The notes under the pieces were generated by a model. That model searched no databases and was not told the DNA's origin. It worked only from the letters and a program-made list of their open reading frames with translations. Of a DNA stretch of 64,000 bases, positions 19,017 through 33,961 are shown piece after piece. Origin of the DNA: Pegea sp. RAD2-039 (lineage: Eukaryota > Chordata > Thaliacea > Salpida > Salpidae); NCBI GenBank assembly GCA_034620365.1, contig JAQGEQ010000299.1:930001-994000 (forward strand), given 5' to 3'. The position numbers were made by a program, and so were the translations under genes. Each line of letters begins with the position of its first letter. Position 1 is the stretch's first letter.

Positions 19017-22000
19017 ATGGAGAAGATTATCTTAATCTTTCTTTGTTTTGTGCTTTTCAATTTTATTGGTAAGTGATTGGACTTGATAGACATAAATGTG
19101 GAGCAACGAACATATCAAACAAAACTTACTTTCTGATTTAGTATAAAACTAGTTGGGTTGCATCAATACTATTAAGCATAACTTTTAGATGTTGCAATAT
19201 CTTACAGATAATCTTATAATTTAATTAAGAATTTTTAGAACTCTATTAAAATTAAATATACCTTTTTTAAGTGAATAATTTCAACTTGTAACAAATAATT
19301 CAGTAAAAATAGAACTTTGTGTGGATTGTTCTTCAATAGTTAATATTTGAAATATATCTACAAGTTTATACTTATTAATAAATGAATATATTTTTCAAGC
19401 AGCATGTAAAGCTGTTGGATACTCAAAAGTCAGTTCTTTTGGTTACAGCGTTTACACTTTCTACACTGAGGTCAAAAATATGTCTCAAGCTAACTCTACT
19501 TGTGGCAAGTTTCAAGGATTTCTAGCTCATGTTAAAGATGAAGAAACCCAAAGTTTTATCTATCAACAACTCAAGGACTACACTACTTCGGGGGCAATAT
19601 TCAAAAAGGGATTTTGGATTGGATTGTATCGAAATACTAATAAGCAATGGCAATGGTCAGATACATCATCAATTGAAAATTATGCAAACTGGTATTCAGG
19701 TTTAAGTGTAGTTGAACCGAGAAAATCAAACAACTGCTCAGCAATCTCAAGCAGCTCCAAAAGCGACGACACTAAAAATAATTATGTAACCTCATCAAAA
19801 GCTGCTTTTGGATTTTGGATTACAAAGAAATGCCCCCTTTCAAACAGATACATTTGCCAAAATAGTAAGTCAATTTGAGGTTTGCTAAAGTAGATGTTTA
19901 CTAATCATAAATTTACAGAATGGGGATTATTATCAAAATCAACTTTACAAATTTCCAGCGGAACTTCAAATATAACTTGTATTGCTTCCAAATTATCTCT
20001 TGTTGTTCAATGGCAAAAGTAAAATTCCTGGTTTCGACCGAGGAACATATTGCTGACTTTTATCTTTTATTTAGAGATGAGGAAACAATAACATTAGAAA
20101 ATGATAGTTCAGTTTTTCAAGAATATGATGATCATGATACTTATAAAATATCCACTCTTTATTTTGTGAATCCTTCAAGCAGAGAAGCTGGAAAATATGA
20201 TTGCTTGATAACTGACTCACAAGCAACAGCTGTAGCAACATTATCAGCAATACTTGAAGGTATAAAAGAAAAAATAAATAAACTCAATTATATTTTTTTA
20301 ATAATTAAGATTATTTCTAAACTGTTTATAAATCTTTTATTTAGGACCGGAATATCTGGATGTGCCGACAAGACTGAACGATAGAAAAGTTGATTTAATG
20401 AGCTCAAGCAACATCTCTTGCTCTGCTAGAGGTTCTTCTCCGACTATTTCATGGATAATAGACTACAAAGTGATGCAAGAAAATGAGAACATTTTCACTG
20501 TGCATGAAATAGATAATACAGAAGTAGTTCGAAGCACCATCATAATCAAAAACATTGTTTCGTTCGACAAAGATGTAATTATTTATTGCTCTACTGAAAA
20601 AGAAGAAAACAGAAAGTTAACTGATTTCGTTATCAATTCAGGTAAAGTTAGTTTTTAAATTTAGTACGATAAGCAAAAGTTACATCTTGTTTAAGCCTAG
20701 CTTGAAATTTGCAGAAGATTTATTCATCGAGTTATTTTGATAAAAACTTGTTATATAAATGATTATTAGGAATTAAAAGCTAGGAAACTTATGAATAAGT
20801 CATAAACTTTGATATTTTGTCTAAATGTTTTCGCTATTTATAATACTGCTATATCTAAAATAAGAAAAGTTTTATTTTTTCTTCAAATGAACTTAAAAAT
20901 TATTCAATAAAAATGTTTGAAAATGATTAGAAAAATGATGCTTGCTAAGAAAGTCGATTTTAAATAATGTTTTAAAAGCTAATTTTAGGTTGTTTACTCA
21001 TAAAAACTTCATTTGATGGCAAACAATGTTAAGATTTCTGTATCTTTTATTTTTTAACCTAATATTTTCAATTTTACAGATGTTTACAGCTTATACTCCG
21101 GTGGATTAAAACAAGGATTTTATTTATTTGCAAATGACAATACTTTGCAAAATAAATGCCGCGAAAAAAATGGAGTATTAGTAAATAGTAAGAGAAAGTT
21201 AATTGGTTCAAATTATCGAAGTTTGAATTTTTTAAGTCGAATTTCTATGTAAACTTTCACACAGAAATAAATTAAAATGAAAATTTGCTTTAGATATGAC
21301 ACTCTTAATAAAGTTTTAGATGTAAGTTTGTACAGAATCTTTTTAACAATCTTTAGTTATAAAGGCAAAAACCTCATGTAATCGCCAAAACGAATAAGAG
21401 TTTTAATTTTCCTCTATAATTGCTTATTCAGAAAGAAATATAATTAAAGAGATAATTTTTGCATTTAAGTACATTTCTGGTTGATAGTTCAATAAGCTTC
21501 TAATTATTTGTATCTGCAGTTGGCGATCAAGTTCGGTGTGAATTCATTGGTGAGTTTGTTTACTTTCGGTTTCCTGTTGAAAGTGAAAATGATTAATTTT
21601 AAATTTTGTATGAAGTTGCATCACTTCAACAATCTCAAGCCACTCAAAGAATTTGTGAAGAAACAGAACTGAAAATTGATTTTAAAGACTTGACGTTTTC
21701 AACTCCACAACCATCCGTGACTGTTTCTCTGTATAATACCCAAGGTTTTATAAAAAGCTTCAGAATCAGCGAACCAATAATCAATTTAAGAGATCTAAAA
21801 CCTAAAACAACCTATACAGTAAAGGTAATAAAAAGCAATGATTTGAAAATACATTTAAAAAAAGTAAATTTCTTAGGTCGAGTATCGACCAATATACTGG
21901 AACAGTTATGTTGGAATTAAAAAACAATTTACAACAAAAGAAATCGTTCCTGAAAGTATTCAGAAACTCTCAACTGAGTTAACAGAATCAGGTGACTGCG

Positions 22001-33961: not shown

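Follow-up and report, generated by a model that had tools for sequence, protein, structure and literature searches.

The locus described here raises the question of whether a single gene can combine a C-type lectin-like domain (CTLD), three copies of a five-part ectodomain unit and two tyrosine phosphatase domains (D1 and D2) within one receptor phosphatase (RPTP), and what kind of receptor such a gene would encode, considering that receptor phosphatases are few, conserved adhesion receptors. The locus is located within a 64,000-nucleotide stretch of Pegea sp. RAD2-039 DNA (named the "window", whose first letter is position 1), for which an initial annotation, made from the sequence alone, had proposed a gene with this domain order.

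The exons were placed by hand from the sequence, guided by a regional gene finder which predicted one gene of 32-50 exons and whose output was dropped as a final model because it had missed joins that were later set by hand. Self-trained gene finding over the whole window was discarded as it ran away to 526 "exons", and a test of the trained finder, in which 37 of the 44 exons were recovered among 54 predicted, is circular since the same exons constituted the training set. The hand-curated model represents a lectin-headed RPTP gene of 44 exons at 19,017-33,961 on the plus strand, with a single open frame of 2,177 codons followed by a TGA stop. It agrees with the initial annotation in the number of exons, in both end points and in the motifs of D1, the product being 13 residues shorter than the 2,190 given there, and the series announced earlier (signal peptide, CTLD, three Ig-Ig-X-FN3-FN3-like units, one membrane helix, D1 and D2) can be read in one frame across the 44 exons. 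Both the signal peptide (exon 1) and the single membrane helix (exon 27) were recognized by reading the sequence. Introns number 43, of which 41 are of the GT-AG and two of the GC-AG type. The features of the gene are as follows, P0001 being a spliced-looking relative that is described below:

19,017 to 19,068, plus strand: exon 1, start codon and signal peptide (open frame, GTAAGT donor; the start of P0001 is similar, MEKII..FNFIA)
19,400 to 19,864, plus strand: exon 2, C-type lectin-like domain (Pfam Lectin_C, E=2e-14); acceptor at 19,400 or 19,403, P0001 favouring 19,403
19,919 to 22,405, plus strand: unit 1 (exons 3-10), Ig, Ig, X, FN3-like, FN3-like (our family HMMs, Pfam Ig)
23,038 to 25,654, plus strand: unit 2 (exons 11-18), Ig, Ig, X, FN3-like, FN3-like (our family HMMs, Pfam Ig; spliced in P0001)
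25,819 to 29,350, plus strand: unit 3 (exons 19-26), Ig, Ig, X, FN3-like, FN3-like (our family HMMs, Pfam Ig, weak fn3)
29,567 to 29,687, plus strand: exon 27, membrane helix (hydrophobic segment [19 protein letters not shown]; paralogues have a corresponding exon)
29,752 to 30,114, plus strand: exons 28-29, juxtamembrane segment (LYKPN, against IYMNI or IYINI in several paralogues)
30,317 to 32,422, plus strand: exons 30-36, phosphatase D1 (Pfam Y_phosphatase, PDB relatives, motifs)
32,476 to 33,961, plus strand: exons 37-44, phosphatase D2, degenerate (Pfam, motif reading)

Exon phases repeat in all three units and so do most exon lengths, which are 109/197/306-312/102-108/30/206-209/180/190-202 in units 2 and 3, unit 1 beginning with three exons of 100/185/297. 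The two GC-AG donors (GCAAGT) are found at 22,057 and 25,306, which are equivalent sites in units 1 and 2, the donor of unit 3 being GTGAGT. That ectodomain and phosphatase appear to belong to one gene is supported because FN, membrane/juxtamembrane and D1 segments follow each other in the same order and on the same strand at nine other CTLD-headed loci, and the gene is well supported as a member of a real family.

The CTLD exceeds the Pfam cut-off clearly (54.7 bits versus 22.6), and its PDB relatives are of the mannose-receptor type. Calcium-dependent sugar binding by C-type lectins involves an EPN or QPD motif plus a WND motif, the places of which are occupied by EPR and WIT in the CTLD of the window gene and by KPR and WTR in P0001, as read from the sequence. 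Because of these replacements of EPN and WND, classical sugar binding by this member would be unlikely. Among 26 CTLDs of the family (three of these 26 are near-identical), EPN or QPD is kept in 13 and W-x-D in 21, both being present in 12; strict WND occurs in four, none of which carries EPN or QPD.

The proposal of three Ig-Ig-X-FN3-FN3 units was borne out for the Ig pairs, found by Pfam as two stretches in each unit (lowest family E-values 1.4e-6, 1.9e-10 and 8.6e-12), and for the repeats as such, which are recovered by the family HMMs, while the second FN3 has no Pfam match, neither in the window units nor in the paralogue stretches of L010, L013, L014 and L016. For the first FN3, the fn3 matches of unit 2 (E=0.059) and unit 3 (E=0.00034) are both under the cut-off and none is listed for unit 1; in the paralogue L016 this domain passes (25.9 versus 25). 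The short X segment gave no match in Pfam. An AlphaFold model of P0001 supplemented with seven window exons, the mean pLDDT of which is poor (46.5), contains one confident Ig (about residues 361-460) and a strand-rich second FN3; as a predicted structure it confirms one Ig fold only.

At the cytoplasmic side, two Y_phosphatase stretches were identified by Pfam (E=7e-112). In D1 both motifs noted previously are intact in the hand-curated model, namely WPDHGVP at 31,574 and the HC-x5-R motif, [10 protein letters not shown], which is encoded across the 31,689/31,754 join. The corresponding segment of D2, [12 protein letters not shown], spans the 33,567/33,679 join (exons 42/43) and reads HCHDGSSFC, so that the cysteine of the catalytic motif is kept and the arginine is lost. 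Because of this loss D2 is probably an inactive pseudophosphatase, and the earlier claim of two phosphatase domains therefore stands with the reservation that the second is degenerate. None of the five D2s with visible sequence to either side of the motif (that of the window gene and, by position, those of L009, L010, L011 and L012) contains C-x5-R. According to PMC7959691, the distal domain of human tandem-domain RPTPs is a pseudophosphatase. The closest solved structures by sequence are those of RPTP epsilon, alpha, LAR and sigma (PDB 2jjd, 6uzt, 1lar and 4bpc), and the D1 of the window gene is most similar to those of its paralogues (60% to L016). A predicted membrane receptor whose D1 retains the catalytic motifs is thereby well supported.

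The genome (105.7 Mb, 387 contigs) was searched for PTP, CTLD and ectodomain sequences, the outcomes of which are lower bounds, and the fetched loci were then analyzed with family HMMs. COX1 gave no hit in this assembly. Ten CTLD-headed PTP loci were obtained: the window gene, L009, L010, L011, L012, L013, L014, L015, L016 and L017. One Ig-Ig-X-FN-FN unit is present in nine of these (the final FN of L012 was not detected), and three units are present in the window gene only. Since the automatic paralogue models are rough, some of them fusing neighbouring genes or holding spurious exons, domain counts were taken from family HMM matches; tail motifs are still derived from the rough models. At least 16 further CTLD-Ig genes, some of them without Ig2 or the FN part, were labelled as PTP-less because neither the PTP search nor the family HMMs show a phosphatase behind them. 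Five of these are located within the window:

1,965 to 2,620, plus strand: CTLD-Ig gene without PTP, partial match (family HMMs)
6,378 to 7,508, plus strand: CTLD-Ig-TM gene without PTP (family HMMs)
8,592 to 10,689, minus strand, opposite to the window gene: CTLD-Ig-FN-TM gene without PTP (family HMMs)
13,650 to 16,739, plus strand: CTLD-Ig-Ig-X-FN-FN-TM gene without PTP (family HMMs)
39,092 to 42,040, plus strand: CTLD-Ig-Ig-X-FN-FN-TM gene without PTP (family HMMs)

Within this lectin gene array a reverse transcriptase fragment was observed at 4,466-4,741 (RVT_1, E=4e-5, under the cut-off). Beside the array are a weak arrestin-like exon, also under the cut-off (36,436-36,678), and, on the minus strand, an amino acid transporter (Aa_trans, 43,838-44,347) and an RGS-domain protein (51,717-52,157).

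WPDHGVP and SAGVGRTG are intact in eight of the ten CTLD-headed PTP loci. In the remaining two, L015 and L017, the motifs are changed to WPSHGVP and SAGVERTG, substitutions that are expected to impair catalysis severely. Together with L016, in which both motifs are intact, these two loci form a near-identical group:

C19:452001-461800: L015
C19:254801-264500: L016
C77:303601-312410: L017

L015 and L017 are situated near contig ends, and their D1 sequences give the appearance of a phosphatase loss in recent copies. The idea that these two are one locus assembled twice was dropped, given that L017 carries the CTLD of L016 with the D1 changes of L015; because of this combination L017 looks like a mosaic, or an assembly chimera.

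A tyrosine motif is found in the juxtamembrane segment of seven of the ten PTP members according to the rough models (IYINI in L010; IYMNI in L009, L015, L016 and L017; IYFNL in L012; VYMDL in L013). It was not seen in the rough models of L011 and L014, and in the window gene, where LYKPN occupies its place, the motif is not kept. Among the 16 short tails, again in rough models, three contain tyrosine motifs (VYMNV in L023, VYLTA in L026 and VYMTV in L027), the other tails being lysine-rich, nearly absent or not modelled, and most of them without such a motif. The family thus presents related ectodomains with differing tails (ten PTP loci, 16 PTP-less loci and at least four tail changes), which is the arrangement of paired receptors.

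The history of these tails was addressed with trees. In the final D1 tree, for which P0015 was recut, L033, L037, L041 and L043 were taken out, P0007 and P0046 were added and P0026 was cut at its other PTP domain, nine family members form one clade (100/98, 200/200 bootstrap trees) separate from the remaining PTPs of the genome and from the named relatives included. An earlier version with a wrongly cut P0015 and short rows had given this clade with 91/58 and in 92% of 200 bootstrap trees; neither tree contains L017. Next to the clade are L035, from the same genome, and a Styela protein, with an unstarred support of 84/90. In the Ig-Ig-FN-FN tree (21 rows, three of which are the units of the window gene) the PTP/no-PTP label has to change five times, and starred, i.e. 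well supported, branches force four of these changes; in the CTLD tree (26 rows) it has to change four times, two of which are forced. Ig1 of L014, a PTP gene, is 94-97% identical to Ig1 of L023 and L027, which are without PTP. As far as these data show, the phosphatase would have been joined to the head once and then lost or exchanged several times, given that there is one D1 clade and that several tail changes are found on the ectodomain trees.

Taken together, we consider it fairly probable that the window gene encodes a type I membrane RPTP belonging to a lineage-specific recognition family with exchangeable tails, and that it would probably function as a recognition receptor. In such a receptor, the three units would set the CTLD head far from the membrane, where the CTLD and distal Ig domains may bind a ligand, either protein or glycan, that is carried by another cell or a microbe, without using the canonical calcium/sugar site. 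Binding or clustering could then alter how readily D1 reaches the phosphotyrosines of neighbouring receptors, perhaps including the short-tailed siblings, some of which have YMNV-type tyrosine motifs, and D2 would serve in regulation or docking without being catalytic. The family itself may change through tandem duplication, loss or exchange of tails and module-wise exchange. That this receptor would answer ligand binding by removing phosphate, as the initial annotation proposed, is an inference; among known RPTPs there are also some that are inhibited by ligand or by clustering. If the recognition-family reading is correct, a tandemly expanded, lectin-headed set with a pseudo-D2 and exchangeable tails represents an RPTP turned into a variable recognition receptor, and the tyrosine motifs of the short-tailed siblings provide a testable substrate idea.

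A more specific possibility, which we put forward tentatively, is that the family constitutes a paired-receptor system of its own, in which variable CTLD-Ig-FN3 heads are placed on either phosphatase or short tails and the phosphatase members would directly dephosphorylate the short-tailed ones, with the window gene being a giant three-unit member. Vertebrate paired immune receptors (Ly49, KIR and SIRP) have similar ectodomains with different tails, tandem arrays and frequent exchange. Their inhibitory-type function operates via ITIM, whereas here it would be executed by a built-in phosphatase, and homology is not claimed.

It is unlikely that the window gene is an adhesion or axon-guidance RPTP of the LAR type that gained a CTLD, its duplications being ordinary tandem expansion with no recognition function. 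This explanation draws on the Ig and FN3-like ectodomain with tandem PTP domains, on the confident Ig of P0001, which matches LAR-type Ig domains among many others, and on a CTLD omega near 1 (see below). The LAR group shares the Ig and FN3 ectodomain, and vertebrate RPTP alpha/epsilon and LAR/PTPRS share the tandem PTP arrangement with an active-type D1; we know of no CTLD in these vertebrate receptors. However, the family D1 clade is placed away from the Hydractinia PTPRD-like sequence, which is the single LAR/PTPRD-type row of a tree whose deeper forks are weak, and a set of about 26 loci in which tails are switched and modules exchanged as in a mosaic is unlike the LAR group, which is small and conserved.

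The three-unit form was evaluated with the aid of P0001 and of a long repeat within the gene. P0001 was the sole match to residues 1-609 among 7,996 scored candidates in a search of 5.8 billion proteins, and comprises 812 residues in one open frame of a 2,712-base JGI contig. It contains a similar signal peptide and CTLD, followed by Ig, then Ig-Ig-X-FN-FN and then a further Ig, and is 70% identical to exons 1-4 plus 11-20. Of the 12 model joins that it covers, ten are ungapped; gaps occur at exon 1/2, where P0001 favours an acceptor three bases downstream, at exon 14/15, and likewise at its own 4/11 join, which is absent from the window model. On account of the 70% identity and the ten ungapped joins, P0001 is probably the spliced counterpart of this gene in a related species. 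Exons 5-10, the removal of which keeps the frame, are missing from P0001, reflecting either a shorter gene in that species or alternative splicing. The repeat consists of two copies of a 1,341-bp stretch covering X-FN-FN of units 1 and 2:

21,072 to 22,412, plus strand: first copy, X-FN-FN with introns (blastn, ungapped, 10 differences)
24,321 to 25,661, plus strand: second copy of the same stretch (blastn)

The identity of the copies, introns included, is 99.25%, with seven of the ten differences being exonic and three intronic; the Ig exons of units 1 and 2 differ, unlike the adjoining X-FN-FN. Such near-identity, as well as the absence of exons 5-10 from P0001, would be expected if the three-unit form were an assembly or annotation artefact, or if ectodomain and phosphatase were separate genes, an explanation that we regard as highly improbable in view of the ten differences between the copies, the non-identical adjoining Ig exons and matching intron phases, the ectodomain-TM-PTP order at nine sibling loci, and the fact that P0001 holds parts of all three units.

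Divergence between close copies is unevenly distributed over the modules. In 11 of 11 paralogue pairs dN of the CTLD exceeds that of Ig1 by 1.4 to 20 times, and the CTLD is the most variable module in close copies; some Ig1 segments used for the trees and for dN/dS (L014, L023, the gene at 39,092 and window unit 3) are over-long because the Ig2 exon matches the Ig1 HMM as well. The data do not demonstrate positive selection on the CTLD, as omega for the whole domain is near 1 and not clearly above it (0.65-1.29 in 11 pairs, calculated from small counts) and several pairs combine a raised dN with a raised dS; owing to this raised dS, exchange is indicated as much as selection. L010 and L011 differ strongly in the FN part and are more alike in the remainder, which speaks for module-wise exchange. 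That the gene would instead encode a mating or egg-surface receptor, not an immune one, with variable lectin heads telling species or self, is very unlikely: it would fit the fast change of the CTLD in close copies, and in a passage of PMC2746195 the authors working on Brachionus manjavacas present a C-type lectin family under study as a possible mate pheromone receptor, but the MMR-B primer from that text had no match within 3 mismatches.

With respect to other animals, the statement of the initial annotation that no such lectin-first modular series is known must be relaxed in two respects: nine paralogous CTLD-headed PTP loci exist in the same genome, and a CTLD is combined with an RPTP in P0091 of Styela clava (LOC120343362, 1,577 aa). 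When D1 of L014 was used as query, P0091 was the one protein among the best 120 of 7,311 matches to combine Lectin_C, Ig and two PTP domains; lectin plus RPTP is therefore not unprecedented. This predicted membrane protein shares Lectin_C, Ig and two PTP domains with the window gene, but reads as EGF-like, Ig, CTLD, FN3-like, TM, D1 and D2, so that its CTLD is internal, preceded by the EGF-like and Ig parts and followed by the FN3-like one, whereas that of the window gene is N-terminal. Furthermore, its D2 retains HCRDGAGRTG, unlike the window D2 without the arginine, and its D1 is not a member of the family D1 clade. When P0091 was compared with this genome at E<=0.001, with 30 of 89 candidates scored, its PTP part alone gave matches.

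Other ligand-binding ectodomain modules are found on the RPTPs P0015 of Branchiostoma belcheri (fibrinogen-FN3-RPTP) and P0002 of Saccostrea cucullata (F5/8C RPTP), whose head domains are other than CTLD and whose D1 falls outside the family clade. Snail CREPs carry a CTLD, and the snail FREP/CREP are, to our knowledge, secreted and without phosphatase; what they share with the window family is the combination of Ig and lectin-type domains in an invertebrate. Both FREP and CREP are named in PMC8878817. In the literature listings and abstract starts of a limited library no paper on a CTLD-headed RPTP was found, and as far as these searches reach a CTLD-first, repeated-unit family with exchangeable tails is undescribed.

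A number of minor observations concern other family loci. Near L023, two D2-like stretches on the plus strand (G000, C19:91009-91167 and 97739-97894) match the Styela D2 and are absent among the Y_phosphatase matches. L024 (C19:423501-431500) contains two units, with FN and Ig repeats, and a degenerate D1; a CTLD was not seen in the sequence retrieved for it, L045 included. Finally, L009, L030, L010 and L011 (C249:1391-1431 kb) are nearly identical lectin-phosphatase genes in an opposed arrangement, and a truncated copy is situated at the start of L009, on the outer left side of this cluster.
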